DNA from: a virus
DNA: 24,722 bases
IMG/VR virus record: IMGVR_UViG_3300025646_000348
Span: 1 to 24,722 of that record
Direction: 5' to 3' (one strand)
The notes under the pieces were generated by a model, which did no database searches, was not told where the DNA came from, and saw nothing but the letters and a program-made list of their open reading frames with translations. Shown in pieces: positions 7,471 to 24,148 of the stretch. The position numbers and the translations under genes were made by a program. Within the stretch, counting starts at the first letter, position 1, and every line of letters starts with the position of its first letter.

Positions 7471-9198
7471 TTACCCAAGTGATGCGCCTTTAACAATGTT
7501 ACGTTCCAACGCTTGTGCATTTGTCACTTCGTTACTTACTACAAACGCTTTAATAGGTCTTTGTTCTCTATCACCTAAAGCCTGTGCTAATTGGTTTTCT
7601 GGTGCCGAACCTACAATATTAAAAGCTGGGGCTTGTACTGGTGCTAAGGCTACCGAACCACCACTATCCATTCCAGCTGCAGAACCTTTAGCCGCATTTA
7701 CAGCAGCTTTAACACTAGATATAATCCCAGCAGCTTGTGCCGCAAACGCAAGTAATAAAGGAATGTTAGCTGGAAAACCTACTTTAGCTGTGGCTGCTGC
7801 ACCTTTAGCAACATCAACACCTGCTTCGCTTGCCCTTAATGTAACACGCTGTAATGTAGCTTTAGCTTCAGCAATTTGTTCCCTAACTAACATGGCTTGG
7901 CGTGCAATAAATAAGGCTCGCCCGACTTTTGTTTCTGCGCCTGCTGCTTCAATAACAGCATCTAAAGTTTCGTATATTTGTTGTCTTCTTGCGAGGGCTA
8001 ATTGTTTGTTTTTTTCTTTTTCTTCTTCAATTAAAGCATCTTGAATAGCAGCTTCTTGGTCAGCATAATATTGCAATAACTCTATTTTTTGCTCTTCAGT
8101 TGCATTTAATTCTTCTAACCTTAATAAATCCCTTGACCTTTGTAAATGTAATTTTTGTAATTCAGTTTTGGCTTCAGCATCCTCATTTTTAATACGGAAC
8201 TCATCGCGTATTTTTTGTATATCTTCTTGGCGTTTGGTTTCTTCTGCAAGTATTTTATCGGCTTCAGCTTTGGCTTTTTCTTCTTCTGCTTTACGTTCAG
8301 CAGCAGCTTTGTCAGCTTCCATTTTACGCAACCCAGCAGCTACGCCTAAAAGTTCTTTATTTCTTACTAAACGTTGTTCTTGTAATTTAATTAAATCAGC
8401 TTCTAATTGTGCTTCTTCATCAAGGTCTTCTTTAGTACTTTCACTTAAACTATTTTCTTGTCTTTTAACGTCTAACCTTGTTTGTGCTAACTCTATTTCT
8501 TTATCTGTAATTTCATTTTCTAATTTTGCTGCTGCTTCTAAAAACCCTATACGTTGTTCAGTGGTGTATTTATCAACCTCAGCTGCTTTAGTTTTAAGTT
8601 CATTTATTTTAACATTTGTTTTAGCACGTTCTACTAATAATGCACGTTCCTTTTTATTTGCGTCTGCTATTTTGTCTGCTAATTCGCCAGCAAGTTCTAA
8701 TTCCCTTTTGGTTTCTTCGCCAAAATTTGCTATCCTAGATTTTAATTGATCAAATGCTTCGCCTGCTTTTGCAAAATTACCAGTAAATACGTTATAAATA
8801 GTATCACCTAAACTGTAAAATATATCACCTATATTACCAGCAATTACTCCAAGTTGCTTTAGTATTTTAGCCATTCGGTTTTGACCCTCCTCACTTGAAG
8901 TAAATGCTTTTGTTAAGGATACAACCGCAATAATTAAAGCACCAATACCAGTTGCTATTATAGCACCTCTTAAAGTACCAAAACTTTTAACCACACCTTT
9001 AAGCGTACCTGTAAGCCCTTTGAATTTAGTTATCGCGCCACCTGATACTTGATCAAGCTGGTTACCTAGTTCGCCAGAGGTTTCATTTGTTTTTTCTACT
9101 TGTTTTTCTAGACCTACTATTTGTTTATTAAGCTGCTCAATATCATAAGCAGCCTCTTTGTATTTAGCCTCAAAGTCTATTACTACCTTTTGTCCCAT
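7471..9198 (-). CDS. Tape measure-like tail protein (575 aa)
   Basis: The 575-residue protein would set tail length and line the tail lumen. Residues 10-50 and about 180-400 are long coiled coils, with extended Glu/Lys/Ala repeats such as ADKAAAERKAEEEKAKAEAD. A hydrophobic segment (about 72-97, GTLRGAIIATGIGALIIAVV) and another at about 475-505 (AAATAKVGFPANIPLLLAF) are typical of tape measures, which insert into the host membrane. The C-terminus has PIKAFVVSNEVTNAQALERN, often seen at the end of Bacteroidota phage tape measures. At about 0.15 nm per residue (the usual scaling for tape measures), it would specify at most about 85 nm of tail, so a short-to-medium siphovirus tail is expected. 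It lies after the 1183-residue tail protein and not before it, the reverse of the common order. Confidence 0.72.
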   Translation of the reverse strand: MGQKVVIDFEAKYKEAAYDIEQLNKQIVGLEKQVEKTNETSGELGNQLDQVSGGAITKFKGLTGTLKGVVKSFGTLRGAIIATGIGALIIAVVSLTKAFTSSEEGQNRMAKILKQLGVIAGNIGDIFYSLGDTIYNVFTGNFAKAGEAFDQLKSRIANFGEETKRELELAGELADKIADANKKERALLVERAKTNVKINELKTKAAEVDKYTTEQRIGFLEAAAKLENEITDKEIELAQTRLDVKRQENSLSESTKEDLDEEAQLEADLIKLQEQRLVRNKELLGVAAGLRKMEADKAAAERKAEEEKAKAEADKILAEETKRQEDIQKIRDEFRIKNEDAEAKTELQKLHLQRSRDLLRLEELNATEEQKIELLQYYADQEAAIQDALIEEEKEKNKQLALARRQQIYETLDAVIEAAGAETKVGRALFIARQAMLVREQIAEAKATLQRVTLRASEAGVDVAKGAAATAKVGFPANIPLLLAFAAQAAGIISSVKAAVNAAKGSAAGMDSGGSVALAPVQAPAFNIVGSAPENQLAQALGDREQRPIKAFVVSNEVTNAQALERNIVKGASLG

Positions 9199-19561: not shown

Positions 19562-19645
19562 TTAACGTTTGTTAAAAGCGTATGCCATACCCATTACAAA
19601 ACCAAAGCCTATTAAACCAAAAAGTTCTACCAGTTCAGCAGCCAT
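19562..19645 (-). CDS. Tiny membrane peptide (27 aa)
   Basis: The frame encodes 27 residues: MAAELVELFGLIGFGFVMGM followed by AYAFNKR. A hydrophobic, Gly-rich helix is followed by a basic end, so one membrane segment with the C-terminus inside is likely. Its ATG overlaps the stop of the DnaA-like gene by one base (TAATG at 19643-19647). The good start context and absence of stops suggest a real gene, but it is short enough to arise by chance. The function is unknown. Confidence 0.5.
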   Translation of the reverse strand: MAAELVELFGLIGFGFVMGMAYAFNKR

Positions 19646-20118
19646 TATTCAACAGTTTGTAGCCCTTCTTTTTCTACCAGTTCAGGCTCGTATTTATTTA
19701 AACGTTGTGCAAAGTAACCATACTTAATCATTACTTCTTTATGCTTTGCTAGTAGTTTGTTGTATTGTTCTTCGTAAAAGCCTTCTATACTTTCTGCTAA
19801 CCTAAAACCTTTAGGGTCTATTGCTATTGCCTTTTGTAGCCTTGTATTAATTTCATCATAGTTGTGTTTTAATACTTTGTCTACTTTTAACCAATGTTCC
19901 ATCTTACGGTTAAAGTGTAATACTGTGGCATGATCACGCCCCATTGAACGCCCTATGGATGATAGTGTGTCGTGTGTGTTTTCTTTTGTTAATTTGTAGT
20001 ATATTGCTCGTGCGTCAATATATTCTTTTACCCTAGTGTCTTTAGTAATGTCTAGGTTAAAGTATTGTTCAACTACTTCTTTAATTAATTTTTGTGCGTT
20101 TGTTAATTTGTTTTTCAT
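19645..20118 (-). CDS. DnaA domain IV-like DNA-binding protein (157 aa)
   Basis: The 157-residue protein carries the origin-binding signature of DnaA: SSIGRSMG then RDHATVLHFNRKM (about 53-73), preceded by KEYIDARAIYYKLTKE. In cellular DnaA the HTH domain with this (R)DHATV motif binds DnaA boxes. Here the AAA+ ATPase domain is missing, so it is a stand-alone DNA-binding protein. It may direct replication initiation on phage DNA, act as a repressor, or compete with host DnaA. The C-terminal half (about 80-157) is helical and unknown. The fold is fairly certain; the job is inference. Confidence 0.8.
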   Translation of the reverse strand: MKNKLTNAQKLIKEVVEQYFNLDITKDTRVKEYIDARAIYYKLTKENTHDTLSSIGRSMGRDHATVLHFNRKMEHWLKVDKVLKHNYDEINTRLQKAIAIDPKGFRLAESIEGFYEEQYNKLLAKHKEVMIKYGYFAQRLNKYEPELVEKEGLQTVE

Positions 20119-20119
20119 G

Positions 20120-20323
20120 TTAATTGTCTGTTAGTTTTTTTTTAATTTCTTTAATTGTCATATACTCACTTTCGTGTAGTGCTTTTAAAATACCAGCGCA
20201 GGCTTCGTAGTCTTCGCTTTGTTCATATATTTCTATTGCTTCATATAGTTCGTGTCTTGGTCTACCATTTACAAGGTCTATAAGTGCTAAATTATAAAAT
20301 TCTTCTATTATATCTTTATTCAA
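20120..20323 (-). CDS. Hypothetical helical protein (67 aa)
   Basis: The 67-residue acidic protein is probably all-helical (IIEEFYNLALIDLVNGRPRH; YEAIEIYEQSEDYEACAGIL; MTIKEIKKKL). It overlaps the downstream end of the second glycosyltransferase by four bases and precedes the DnaA-like gene by one base. The helix pattern resembles small regulatory or adaptor proteins, but no family is recognised. Confidence 0.55.
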   Translation of the reverse strand: MNKDIIEEFYNLALIDLVNGRPRHELYEAIEIYEQSEDYEACAGILKALHESEYMTIKEIKKKLTDN

Positions 20324-21060
20324 AATAAGCTTTGCTGTTTGCTATGTAGTATTTCATAGCTGTTTTTATTTAACAATATTTCATTTTCCCTTTTAGAGTT
20401 TAGCTTTATACATTCGCCCCATTTAGTTTTTAAATAATTAATCGTTTCTTGTTCTAATTTATTTGTCCTGTAATCTACTGCCCCACCTTTATTAGAATAA
20501 TGTTTAAAAGAATTTAAGTACTTTTGGTACCTGATGCACCCATTAGCTGCAATATGCTGTAAAGTATAATCGTAATCTTCTTTTAACCTTAAGTTTGTGT
20601 CAAATATATATTGATTTGGTTTTACTATTATAAAATCACCTACTATGAATTTATTATATTCTTTTTCCTTTAAAGCAAAAAATGGGTTATTAGTAGGAGG
20701 AAATCCAGCAAAGTAATATATTGAATTTATAAAATCAAATAATATATCATTTAATACATCAATAACCTTTACATATTTATGCGTTCTTTTACCAGTAAAA
20801 TCATTTACCATTATATTTTCAAGATCATCACTTAACTGAATACATATTTTATTTAAATTGAAACAATGTTTTAAACTTGCGTTTCTACTATCCATTAATG
20901 AACCTGATATAATAACTTCTTTAGCCCCATTTTGTAAATACATTTTTTTATCTGCTTCATTTTTTACAAAAAAAGTAACATTATCAGTACCTACTTTTTC
21001 TAAAAAATTAAATACATTTTCATGACGGTTATGGCTAATGCAAGTTATAATATATTCCAT
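20320..21060 (-). CDS. GT-A-like glycosyltransferase B, candidate DNA base transferase (246 aa)
   Basis: The 246-residue protein starts with a Rossmann-like MEYIITCISHNRHENVFNFL and has DSRNASL (57-63) followed by IQLSDDLENI (74-83). The SDD in this position corresponds to the metal and nucleotide-sugar binding DxD of GT-A transferases. It resembles the glycosyltransferases that accompany TET/JBP dioxygenases in phages, though not closely. Together with the preceding transferase it may attach sugar to hydroxymethylated bases. It starts at the stop of that gene (TAATG). A KxxxWxE-like C-terminus is not diagnostic. The sequence is markedly A/T-rich and Asn/Lys/Ile-rich. A lipid or protein glycosylation role cannot be excluded. 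Confidence 0.58.
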   Translation of the reverse strand: MEYIITCISHNRHENVFNFLEKVGTDNVTFFVKNEADKKMYLQNGAKEVIISGSLMDSRNASLKHCFNLNKICIQLSDDLENIMVNDFTGKRTHKYVKVIDVLNDILFDFINSIYYFAGFPPTNNPFFALKEKEYNKFIVGDFIIVKPNQYIFDTNLRLKEDYDYTLQHIAANGCIRYQKYLNSFKHYSNKGGAVDYRTNKLEQETINYLKTKWGECIKLNSKRENEILLNKNSYEILHSKQQSLF

Positions 21061-21830
21061 TACAATAATGTTAATTGGTTTTTAACTTTAGGAGTTATAT
21101 ACCTTAATCCAACCCCAGTATTTTTAATTGCACAAAATTTAGGATAATTTTCAACTAACCATTTATCAGATAACCTCTGTTTATAATCACGCTCTTGTTT
21201 TGTCATAACTTGTTGTATGCCCCCTTCTGTTTTTTTATTAGGTAACATATCTAATCCTATATAATTTAATCTAACTAAACTACCATACTTTTCAAAAACT
21301 TTAATACATACTTCGCCATCTTCTGTTAATTCATAAGGGTTTGTAGCTTTAATAGTTTTATCATTTATAAAAACGTAATAACACGCTGGTAACAAACAAT
21401 TTTTATAATGTATTTTATTATTCATAAAAAATGGATTGCTTACCATGTTTACACCGCCTAAAATAGTTTTTTTATCATACATTTCTTTTATTAAAATGTT
21501 TGTTATTGTTTTAATATCAGTATATTTTTCTAAAGTTTTATCATCAACCTTTTTTAAAAAACCCTTTACATCATCATCCATACCTACTATTATTTCATTA
21601 TCATCAAAATAATTTCGTATAAAATTTCTAGTTTGCTGTATACTATTGCTATTAATTGGTATTATATTAATATTTTTATCTAAAGTATTTCTATAAGCAT
21701 TATAACAATCATTATTTGTAAATATGAAAATGTCCTGTAATGGTATTGAATTACTTTGTAAAAATTTTAAAGTATTTTTTTTTAATATGTTTTCCCTATA
21801 TATACTTGGAATTGCTATCTTGTATTTCAT
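21060..21830 (-). CDS. GT-A-like glycosyltransferase A, TET/JBP-associated type (256 aa)
   Basis: The 256-residue protein has the layout of TET/JBP-associated glycosyltransferases: KIAIPSIYR (4-12) at the first strand, IFIFTNNDCYNAY (34-46), QQTRNFIRNYF (65-75), and IIVGMDDDVKGF (80-91) with the DDD metal/sugar-nucleotide site. LLPACYYVFIND and NPYELTEDGEVCIKVFEKYG follow, where TEDGE may hold the catalytic acid. It lies six bases downstream of the nuclease-like gene and two genes from the dioxygenase. The expected reaction is transfer of a sugar from UDP- or other NDP-sugar to a 5-hydroxymethylpyrimidine in DNA. The substrate is inferred from the neighbourhood only. It is conspicuously rich in AAA/TTA/ATT codons. 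Confidence 0.7.
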   Translation of the reverse strand: MKYKIAIPSIYRENILKKNTLKFLQSNSIPLQDIFIFTNNDCYNAYRNTLDKNINIIPINSNSIQQTRNFIRNYFDDNEIIVGMDDDVKGFLKKVDDKTLEKYTDIKTITNILIKEMYDKKTILGGVNMVSNPFFMNNKIHYKNCLLPACYYVFINDKTIKATNPYELTEDGEVCIKVFEKYGSLVRLNYIGLDMLPNKKTEGGIQQVMTKQERDYKQRLSDKWLVENYPKFCAIKNTGVGLRYITPKVKNQLTLL

Positions 21831-21836
21831 TGTTCT

Positions 21837-22319
21837 TTATATTATTGCAAGTTGTGTATCAAATATTTCAAAGGCTAATTCAGCACATTGCTTTTCGTTA
21901 AGTAAAAAGCCCCATTCTTGCCCACCGCCTTTACTTATAAAACCACCAGTTAAATAAGGTTTATTATTTAAATAATAGTTTCTAAGGTCTTTTAGTGCAA
22001 ATATGTAAAATTTATATTCGCCTCCTATAACAAAAAAACGTTTGTTGTGTTCTTTCATTATACCACTAGGCACCTCTTCTTTATAAGGGTATGTTCTTTT
22101 TACACTAATGTAAACGTTCTTACTTTTACCACTTTCAAACGTTTGGTCATGCTTTATTTCTATACCTTGTGCGTTTTCACCTTTTTCAAATTGGTTTTCT
22201 AAACTGGTGTGGTGTATTAAATTCCAACCCCACTCTTTGGCGAAGTATTCGTAAACTGTATCTTGAAATTTGTTTGCTGCTTCAGTCTTTTTTTTGTTTA
22301 ATGGTTCTTTATTGCTCAT
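21837..22319 (-). CDS. PD-(D/E)XK nuclease-like protein within the modification cluster (160 aa)
   Basis: The 160-residue protein begins with a basic, helical segment and has NKFQDTVYEYFAKEWGWNLI (16-35). Then follow GIEIKHDQTF (52-61) and NVYISVKRTYPYKEE (68-82). The G-I-E-I-K-x-D plus strand pattern, with a second I-S-V-K strand, resembles compact PD-(D/E)XK-type proteins of Bacteroidota phages. The Glu expected in the second strand is replaced by Ser, so catalytic activity is uncertain. The gene overlaps the dioxygenase stop by four bases and lies directly before glycosyltransferase A. It might cut unmodified host DNA or process modified DNA, which is inference; the sequence alone is not decisive. 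Confidence 0.45.
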   Translation of the reverse strand: MSNKEPLNKKKTEAANKFQDTVYEYFAKEWGWNLIHHTSLENQFEKGENAQGIEIKHDQTFESGKSKNVYISVKRTYPYKEEVPSGIMKEHNKRFFVIGGEYKFYIFALKDLRNYYLNNKPYLTGGFISKGGGQEWGFLLNEKQCAELAFEIFDTQLAII

Positions 22320-23194
22320 AATGTTAAATATCCTGTTTTATCTTGTTTAATTTCTTCTAGCTGTTCTTTTGGTCCTTTGCATTTATACATATATTCACGA
22401 TAGTATAATACAAAACTTACACGCATCCAGTCATCACTTCTATTAGTGTATTCTGTATTGCCATGCCATTTATGTACATCAACAAAAAGCAAGTCGGTAT
22501 TTTGCATATCAATCGCAACTGCATATTCAGGCAGCACAAAGTAACCACCATCGCAATGACCTTCACGATAAACTATTAAGTTTCCAAAGCCTTCTTGGAA
22601 GTCGCCTGCATCTTGGTGTACTGCTGTTCTAAAGTTTTTATTTACGGTTACAGTTGTAAAGCTAGTGTCTGCTATAACGTAGTTTTGATTCGTACCTAAA
22701 GCTATTGCTTTTTGCCTTGCATAATGTTCAGGGCAAAGTTCTTGATACTTTTGGTCTATAAACTGTACAAAGGGTATACCTGCTTTAAACTTGTTAAAAT
22801 ACTTTTTAGCAAATGCTGTTTTACGACAGTAGTGTATCATTGCACTTTTATCCATATAACCTACACTACCAGACTCAACTTTATTACCTACTGTTATATT
22901 ACTAATGCTGCCATCTTTACGAATACGTTTGTGGCTGCTTCCACTTGCTGCTCCCCTACTTTCTGTTAGTTCTATACTGTCTTTAAATGATTCGTACCCT
23001 GTTTTTAATAAGTCGTAAGGTATTACCCCTTTACGGTACCTAAACAATAAAGCCCCAGTATAAGCATCGTAACCATCAGCGTCACTTGTTATTAGTGTAT
23101 TATAGTGGCTATCATCTAAATATTGGGTTTTAAGTTTAGCAGCTTGCTCATCATCAAGTACTCTTTTTAAATTATAAGTTTCCATATCTTTCAT
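22316..23194 (-). CDS. TET/JBP-family Fe(II)/2-oxoglutarate dioxygenase acting on DNA (292 aa)
   Basis: The 292-residue protein is recognisable as a TET/JBP-type dioxygenase. The double-stranded beta-helix has VNKNFRTAVHQDAGDFQEGF with the HxD pair His193 and Asp195, then GYFVLPEYAVAIDMQNTDLL, DVHKWHGNT with distal His244, and MRVSFVLYYR with Arg258 to bind 2-oxoglutarate. The N-terminal extension has SRGAASGSSHKRIRKDG (79-95) and CRKTAFAKKYFNKFK, which occur in phage JBP/TET relatives. These enzymes hydroxylate the 5-methyl group of thymine or 5-methylcytosine in DNA, using O2 and 2-oxoglutarate. Two glycosyltransferase genes follow. The start could be Met1 or Met4; both overlap the 72-residue gene. 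Which base is oxidised is not visible. Confidence 0.85.
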   Translation of the reverse strand: MKDMETYNLKRVLDDEQAAKLKTQYLDDSHYNTLITSDADGYDAYTGALLFRYRKGVIPYDLLKTGYESFKDSIELTESRGAASGSSHKRIRKDGSISNITVGNKVESGSVGYMDKSAMIHYCRKTAFAKKYFNKFKAGIPFVQFIDQKYQELCPEHYARQKAIALGTNQNYVIADTSFTTVTVNKNFRTAVHQDAGDFQEGFGNLIVYREGHCDGGYFVLPEYAVAIDMQNTDLLFVDVHKWHGNTEYTNRSDDWMRVSFVLYYREYMYKCKGPKEQLEEIKQDKTGYLTL

Positions 23195-23390
23195 TTAATA
23201 TTTTTAGTAAAAAGTCACTAAGGTTTCCCTTTTGTTGGTATTCCTCACCAAATTCAATTTTTATGCCAACTTTACAAAGTTTTTTAAACTTCCTTAGTTC
23301 TTGCGCACTAAAATATAAAATAGTAGTGGTTATTTCTGTTTCGTCTATTGGGCTGTTATCTATACCCCAGTCATCTTCAAATAGCTTCAT
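23172..23390 (-). CDS. Hypothetical protein (72 aa)
   Basis: The 72-residue protein has an acidic N-terminus (MKLFEDDWGIDNSPIDETEI) and a helical middle (FSAQELRKFKKLCKVGIKIE), ending with LSDFLLKILNERYGNL. Similar small proteins with a SAxELxxFKxL segment occur near early genes in phages of this group. It overlaps the exonuclease end by four bases and the dioxygenase start by 23. It may be an accessory to the exonuclease or dioxygenase; the function is unknown. Confidence 0.55.
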   Translation of the reverse strand: MKLFEDDWGIDNSPIDETEITTTILYFSAQELRKFKKLCKVGIKIEFGEEYQQKGNLSDFLLKILNERYGNL

Positions 23391-24148
23391 AATACACCTC
23401 GTAAAACGTATTGGTCTAAATCGTGTTCTTCTTTAAAAAAATAAACATAGTTATCAACCGCTTGATGGAACTTTTGTTCCCCCCTGTTTAAAAACTCTTC
23501 GCTTACATCAAATATACCTATGTCGGTACTACCTTTGTCAACTACTAAAAAAATAAACTTACTTTTATTAAATAACTTTAAGTATAACCACGCTTGTAAA
23601 TCATACCCATACTTGTCGGCACTATACCTAAAAGTATTAAGGTCGGCAGTTGTTTTAAGGTCTATAATAGTATCACCTTGTATAATATCAGCCTTACCCC
23701 TAAAAGGTAAACCGTTTATCATTTGTATAGCAGGAATTTCAAACTCTGACTTAGATAATAGTTTTAATGCTGCTTCGTTTCTTAATACAGCATCAGCTAA
23801 CCTTTCAGCAGCTTCACGTTCTTTTGTTAAAAATACATGCTCATATTCTTTTTTGGCATCTTTATACTTATTGGTGTTTTTAGTAGAAGCATCTACAAAA
23901 TGTAACCTATCTATTTTGTGTGGTTCAAGTATAAACCAATGAGCCAGCCTACCCTCACTTAAAGCCTGTGTATCGCCCCCACCGTATTTAATAATATTTC
24001 TATACGTCTTAGGGCTTTTAAGTAATGTTCTTAAACTACTGCTACTAAGTGCGTTTTTATTTAAATGCCCATAGTAAAAGTCATCGCTATACATTTGTGT
24101 GAGTATCTCAGTATGGTTCCAAGTATCACCGTTTAATAGTTTTATCAT
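23387..24148 (-). CDS. PD-(D/E)XK RecB-like exonuclease (253 aa)
   Basis: The 253-residue protein has the PDDEXK_1 / RecE-like motif order: a SSSSLRTLLKSPKTYRNIIK helix (35-54), EGRLAHWFI with His70, LPFRGKADII with Asp154, IIDLKTTADL with Asp163-x-Lys165, and YGYDLQAWLYL with Gln185. This matches 5'-3' exonucleases of phage recombination systems and related nucleases, which produce 3' single strands for annealing. No annealing protein (Bet/RecT/SSB) was seen next to it, so the partner may lie to the right. It is coupled to the 72-residue gene by a four-base overlap. Catalysis needs a divalent metal. Confidence 0.82.
   Translation of the reverse strand: MIKLLNGDTWNHTEILTQMYSDDFYYGHLNKNALSSSSLRTLLKSPKTYRNIIKYGGGDTQALSEGRLAHWFILEPHKIDRLHFVDASTKNTNKYKDAKKEYEHVFLTKEREAAERLADAVLRNEAALKLLSKSEFEIPAIQMINGLPFRGKADIIQGDTIIDLKTTADLNTFRYSADKYGYDLQAWLYLKLFNKSKFIFLVVDKGSTDIGIFDVSEEFLNRGEQKFHQAVDNYVYFFKEEHDLDQYVLRGVL

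Follow-up and report, generated by a model that had tools for sequence, protein, structure and literature searches.

A predicted base-hypermodification block in an uncultivated phage: a TET/JBP dioxygenase, two TAGT glycosyltransferases and thymine as a candidate substrate

The uncultivated marine tailed phage represented by IMG/VR record IMGVR_UViG_3300025646_000348, a stretch of 24,722 bases that we call the window, carries a TET/JBP dioxygenase gene followed by a nuclease-like open reading frame (ORF) and two TAGT glycosyltransferase genes. Judging from the identities of its genes, this block very likely oxidises a pyrimidine in the phage's own DNA and adds one or two sugars to it. The best reading, and the one that we favour, is that thymine is converted to 5-hydroxymethyluracil after replication and then receives a base-J-like mono- or disaccharide; thymine would, in our estimation, probably be the direct substrate of the TET enzyme. 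Oxidation followed by glycosylation had been put forward in a preliminary description of this DNA, and the idea is well supported. That description had not seen two unusual features, the absence of a C5-methyltransferase and an exchangeable tailoring slot.

The TET ORF matches the Pfam family Tet_JBP (PF12851) with E = 5.1e-25 and 88 bits at a cut-off of 34.9. The residues His193, Asp195, His244 and Arg258, which had been named as the motifs of the enzyme, are invariant in an alignment of 34 diverse homologues. By homology, H193, D195 and H244 would bind iron and R258 would bind 2-oxoglutarate, while Y264 and R266 would line the base pocket. An AlphaFold model built from 33 homologues (pLDDT 93) has NgTET1, TET2, CcTet and CMD1 as its top Foldseek neighbours (E 1e-12 to 1e-10), with a VIA Z of 21.5 over 265 residues against human TET2 and of 18.5 against NgTET1. 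The protein thus shows the double-stranded beta-helix fold, the HxD...H iron triad and the 2-oxoglutarate arginine. Searches of the PDB sequences with profile A1 and with single sequences found no TET; fold comparison alone succeeded. Relatives of the window TET are encoded by at least 546 IMG/VR stretches. With the TET of S-CBWM1 as query against viral contigs, the sole match was S-CBWM1 itself. Some phage TETs carry other names in the databases: the TET/JBP-like gp2 of mycobacteriophages (L221, L223, L225, L226) is annotated as 'queuine tRNA-ribosyltransferase', and TETs of other phages are labelled 'SNF2 DNA repair' or 'DnaJ'. Such labels are likely misannotations that have spread via databases.

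Both transferases exceed the cut-off of PF20691 (27.5 bits; scores in Table 1), the family of TET-associated glycosyltransferases from which the name TAGT derives, and match phrog_842, 'beta-glucosyl-HMC-alpha-glucosyltransferase' (E of 4e-9 and 2e-12), and both lie 3' of the TET gene in one coupled block. The two GT-A-like transferases of the preliminary description are therefore confirmed, and all three proteins that it had singled out for a hidden Markov model search lie over the TET/JBP and TAGT cut-offs. TAGT-a and TAGT-b are 17% identical and belong to separate subfamilies, which rules out a recent duplication as their origin. TAGT-a represents a rare subfamily that is otherwise seen only in locus L038, whose copy is its sister with 65% identity; the TAGT-b subfamily is the only glycosyltransferase in many sister loci. 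In L030, L056 and L080, a 'Gly_transf_sug' (PF04488) protein replaces TAGT-a between the nuclease ORF and TAGT-b. As judged from these gene orders, the second transferase is an optional extra 5' of the common TAGT, an arrangement that would fit a disaccharide made in two steps. In T6-type phages, a TAGT is stated to attach the second glucose (PMC13390438).

The possible substrate of the TET enzyme was approached by comparison of about 190 loci, namely 85 of the window type, 37 of the HTVC112P type and 69 of the Melnitz type; the TET tree joined these three sets with additional isolates and with TETs found on bacterial contigs. The Melnitz type, a sister TET lineage that we also call C5-linked, has a C5-cytosine methyltransferase gene no farther than 1.5 kb from TET in 62 of its 69 loci, against 2 of the 122 window- and HTVC112P-type loci (Fisher p about 1e-39, a value that is overstated since the loci are related). 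No C5-methyltransferase gene adjoins TET in the window or in Nonlabens phage P12024L. When entire records were searched with PF00145, the gene was absent from the complete genomes of P12024L, HTVC112P, DLP_6, Cr30, S-CBWM1 and C48C1, from most long contigs and from five records of mycobacterial and Arthrobacter phages. On whole contigs, it is present in 9/9 of the Melnitz type and 0/7 of the HTVC type. From these gene inventories, the window lineage has dropped or never had a C5-methyltransferase. A pyrimidine hydroxymethylase of the thymidylate-synthase family did not exceed the cut-off in any of 16 records including the window and P12024L, which rules out nucleotide-level hydroxymethylation by such a homologue for the records tested.

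The genes that follow TET vary between close relatives. Among the 85 window-type loci, the slot holds one TAGT alone in 57 and two TAGTs in three (the window, the near-identical L002, and L038), so that 60 loci have TAGT only. A kinase alone occurs in 10 loci, an amino acid:DNA transferase together with a kinase in nine and this transferase alone in two (21 with kinase/transferase only); one locus has both routes and three have neither. The DNA on either side of the slot is 80-95% identical, on one side until roughly where the nuclease ORF ends and on the other from beyond the slot, whereas the slot itself is unrelated. L057 (TAGT) and L061 (kinase), for example, are 95.5% identical over 2,940 bases and then do not match until past the slot. 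Such swaps are found even where the TETs are at least 85% identical. By all appearances, the content of the slot is swapped cleanly, the alternatives being TAGT and a P-loop kinase that may or may not be accompanied by an amino acid:DNA transferase. This transferase belongs to PF18724 'Amino acid:DNA transferase' (E down to 1e-21) and occurs in 14/122 loci outside the C5-linked lineage versus 0/69 within it; it was also not found in the complete Melnitz genome. Its relatives are encoded by ViI-like Salmonella, Klebsiella and Dickeya phages and, directly after TET, by Coopervirus mycobacteriophages. The DNA of phage ViI contains a base derived from 5-hydroxymethyldeoxyuridine (PMC6449724).

Other gene combinations beside TET were seen as well. 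In L015 (HTVC112P, 7599-9195) and in L176-L198, TET overlaps the gene of an FkbM-family methyltransferase and no glycosyltransferase is present there; O-methylation of the hydroxymethyl base is possibly its role. Right after TET in L203 and L204, a domain weakly resembling pyridoxal phosphate-dependent enzymes (PALP) stands in frame before the amino acid:DNA transferase, and a P-loop kinase comes after both. L205-L208 combine TET and TAGT with an unknown protein of 334 aa and a cytidylyltransferase-like protein, with which the phage may supply the nucleotide sugar itself.

The base pocket is the second line of evidence on the substrate. At the C-terminal end of the structural alignment with TET2, the numbering differs by a constant offset of 1638 (model residues 280, 283 and 286 against 1918, 1921 and 1924). 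If the alignment is gap-free from 258 to 280, R258 would correspond to R1896 of TET2, Y264 to Y1902 and R266 to H1904. In the structures of TET2 and NgTET1, we take the position of Y1902 to be base-stacking and that of H1904 to be base-contacting. Every aligned TET of the window, HTVC and T4-like groups has Arg at position 266; 93% of the C5-linked lineage have Asp there, and the TETs of mycobacterial and Arthrobacter phages have Leu or Ile. By a chemical argument, a donor such as Arg would suit O4 of thymine, and an acceptor such as Asp would suit the methylcytosine amino group. Both the gene context and residue 266 would agree with direct action on thymine by a putative hydroxylase of the base J type.

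We propose the following pathway. The TET/JBP enzyme would act on replicated phage DNA and hydroxylate a pyrimidine at its 5-methyl group, as its family and fold suggest. The substrate would most likely be thymine, so that 5-hydroxymethyluracil would form and no methyltransferase would be required. TAGT-b would add the first sugar and TAGT-a, the optional extra, would most likely add the second, so that a base-J-like mono- or disaccharide is formed. This mark would be expected to shield the DNA from host nucleases. It is a speculation that the nuclease-like protein may cut DNA without the mark, in the way that host DNA is attacked by nucleases of T-even phages. For this large marine phage lineage as a whole, we see an even chance that TET/JBP oxidises thymine directly in replicated DNA and that the resulting hydroxymethyluracil carries a decoration which recombination at one slot swaps among close relatives, either one or two sugars, in effect a phage base J, or a phosphate/amino acid adduct. 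To our knowledge, direct oxidation of thymine in DNA has been shown only for the eukaryotic JBPs and, weakly, for NgTET1.

Several observations weigh against thymine. On the TET tree, the C5-methyltransferase trait switches once, so that the contrast between the lineages counts as a single evolutionary event. A small number of window-type loci (L048, L051, L052, L057, L071, L081, L088) have a C5-methyltransferase, mostly at a distance, and the window is an incomplete record of 24.7 kb. The kinase is also present in 27/69 loci of the C5-linked lineage and is therefore not specific to thymine. Mycobacteriophage TETs that occur without a C5-methyltransferase have Leu or Ile at position 266, not Arg; the alignment of this position covers phage and related TETs. 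Asp198, presumably the counterpart of the NgTET1 residue that contacts the amino group of cytosine, is conserved in the window and C5-linked lineages, which weakly disfavours thymine.

The same conserved Asp198 speaks for a different substrate. It is possible, if rather doubtful, that the TET enzyme oxidises 5-methylcytosine provided by a C5-methyltransferase of the host or of an unsampled phage, which would lead to sparse glycosylated hydroxymethylcytosine. Published phage TETs are reported to act on 5-methylcytosine (Burke et al. 2021, cited in PMC12730594 and PMC11404850). The fold of the window enzyme is also nearest to enzymes acting on this base, though the fold hits included no thymine-acting structure, and a C5-methyltransferase does occur in a few related loci. 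However, complete isolates without a methyltransferase infect very different hosts, while the lineage with the adjacent methyltransferase almost always keeps it. Dependence on host methylation would moreover limit the mark to host motifs, and the slot is also occupied by an amino acid:DNA transferase.

Two further explanations concern the purpose of the block rather than the base. GT-A enzymes are common in phages and the TAGT scores of 30-32 bits are modest, so the two transferases might act on a host surface glycan or a virion glycoprotein and stand beside TET by chance. We regard this as very improbable, given that the Pfam match is specifically to a TET-associated family and that a TAGT lies near TET in 61/85 sister loci and again in HTVC-type, C5-linked, mycobacterial and Arthrobacter phages. 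It is just as improbable, in our view, that TET erases host methylation marks or restriction tags laid by the host and builds no hypermodified base at all. Metazoan TETs do feed demethylation, the P12024L cluster adjoins an N6/N4 DNA methylase and CcTet was crystallised with DNA containing 6-methyladenine, according to PDB titles; yet the constant presence of downstream tailoring enzymes requires a stable hydroxymethyl acceptor, and the N6/N4 methylase is found in only 5/91 loci.

Iyer and co-workers in 2013 and Burke and co-workers in 2021 are said to have predicted or shown TET-TAGT clusters, TETs accompanied by kinases or by amino acid transferases, and the action of phage TETs on 5-methylcytosine. 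The core of the window block is not new, because TET and TAGT clusters have been described and P12024L has TET and one TAGT. The preliminary description went too far in presenting two transferases as an undescribed variant: phages that encode a C5-methyltransferase, TET/JBP and a couple of glycosyltransferases are reported in a review (PMC12730594, citing Burke et al. 2021). What is distinct about the window, as far as its genes tell, is that its two TAGTs are divergent, that a predicted nuclease gene stands between them and TET, and that it belongs to a lineage without C5-methyltransferase.

The closest cultured counterpart, Nonlabens (Persicivirga) phage P12024L (gp25-gp28), shares the 72-aa ORF upstream of TET, the TET itself and a TAGT next to it in a complete genome without C5-methyltransferase. 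It differs by having a single TAGT, no PD-(D/E)XK ORF and an extra N6/N4 DNA methylase. In the Melnitz type (Methylophilales phage; clusters of Burke et al. 2021), TET/JBP is likewise followed by TAGT and/or a P-loop kinase, but the TETs are only about 20-23% identical to that of the window, the C5-methyltransferase is adjacent, and the position of TET2 His1904 is Asp instead of Arg. The Bclasvirinae mycobacteriophages Acadian, Indlovu and Zemanar and the Arthrobacter phage Prairie have a ParB-like protein, TET and, in the slot, TAGT or an amino acid:DNA transferase. The five records tested also lack C5-methyltransferase, but their TETs form a separate lineage with Leu or Ile at 266, and an N-acetylglucosamine-type deacetylase follows TAGT. 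The predicted logic resembles kinetoplastid base J, in which JBP1/2 and the J-glucosyltransferase (JGT) hydroxylate thymine and then add a sugar (PMC6449724). Here the target would be phage DNA, TAGT is not of the JGT family, a J-binding domain was not recognised, and the activity on thymine is a prediction only. T-even glucosylation (T6 alpha-glucosyltransferase and TAGT) also employs a TAGT-family enzyme and two transferases to form a disaccharide (PMC13390438); there, hydroxymethylation takes place on the nucleotide deoxycytidine monophosphate, whereas in the window it is predicted to take place on DNA by TET. For DLP6, restriction digests have been published, with no clear statement on resistance in the text consulted.

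Oxidation of thymine by the window lineage is a valuable question. If it takes place, the block would be a phage counterpart of the base J pathway, which might even have originated from it, and it would offer a new specificity, the direct conversion of thymine to 5-hydroxymethyluracil in DNA, which would be useful for sequencing and labelling. With P12024L, whose host is Persicivirga sp. IMCC12024, as a cultured relative, the question is directly testable. Near-identical phages with a glycosyltransferase or a DNA-base kinase in the slot would show how an arms race diversifies DNA decoration.

Table 1 Features of the predicted hypermodification block in the window.
Feature	Position	Strand	Basis or remark
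72-aa small protein (c1), probable TET partner	23172..23390	-	overlaps TET start
TET/JBP Fe(II)/2-oxoglutarate dioxygenase, 292 aa	22316..23194	-	PF12851, fold, motifs
Predicted PD-(D/E)XK nuclease (c4), 160 aa	21837..22319	-	AlphaFold model, structural neighbours, invariant residues
TAGT-a, GT-A glycosyltransferase, rare subfamily, 256 aa	21060..21830	-	PF20691, 31.7 bits
TAGT-b, GT-A glycosyltransferase, common subfamily, 246 aa	20320..21060	-	PF20691, 30.4 bits

All recognisable genes of the window are on the minus strand. The four ORFs of the preliminary description are indeed located where it had placed them, with overlaps of 1-4 bases or gaps of 6 bases, which bears out its coupled minus-strand block. 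The order of transcription is 72-aa ORF, TET, nuclease-like ORF, TAGT-a, TAGT-b, a 67-aa ORF and a protein with a DnaA C-terminal domain. Because adjoining frames from the 72-aa ORF through TAGT-b overlap or are 6 bases apart, the arrangement suggests coupled translation. Promoter and terminator scans were uninformative, their signal in the window equalling the shuffled expectation.

The nuclease-like ORF (c4) matched no sequence family in the profile search, and tblastn gave no match among 50,697 phage records. Its AlphaFold model (pLDDT 87) has mainly PD-(D/E)XK neighbours, with I-Ssp6803I (Z = 7.7) followed by Hjc, RecU, PvuII, EcoRV and DpnI; for I-Ssp6803I, the Foldseek probability is 0.99 at an E of only 0.015. 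The residues G47, E48, N49, G52, E54, I55 and K56 are invariant, and the model combines a restriction-endonuclease-like fold with an acidic-x-Lys motif. The prediction of a PD-(D/E)XK nuclease has moderate support and agrees with the nuclease-like protein first noted. The ORF occurs in 60/91 loci.

The 72-aa ORF lies beyond the interval originally described and stands just 5' of TET in 83/91 loci. It aligns with the C-terminal tail of a ParB-like protein by hhalign with E = 1.6e-4 but a probability of only 51%; in HTVC112P-type phages, a ParB-like protein precedes TET.

A flavobacterial host can fairly be inferred for the window phage, because the nearest relatives of its terminase are Flavobacterium phages (51%) and its TET is nearest to that of P12024L (76% identical). 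The protein with the DnaA C-terminal DNA-binding domain (19645-20118, minus strand; PF08299, E = 1e-11) lies just 3' of the slot and is retained in most sister loci. On the 5' side of the block, positions 23387-24148 (minus strand) encode a DUF3799/exonuclease VIII-like PD-(D/E)XK recombination nuclease, which in some sister phages is replaced by an unrelated ORF of about 237 aa (c16). TETs of the Arg266 type were also found on contigs binned as Neisseriaceae, Parcubacteria, Terriglobia, Betaproteobacteria and others (L213-L219), which are probably prophages or phage contigs.

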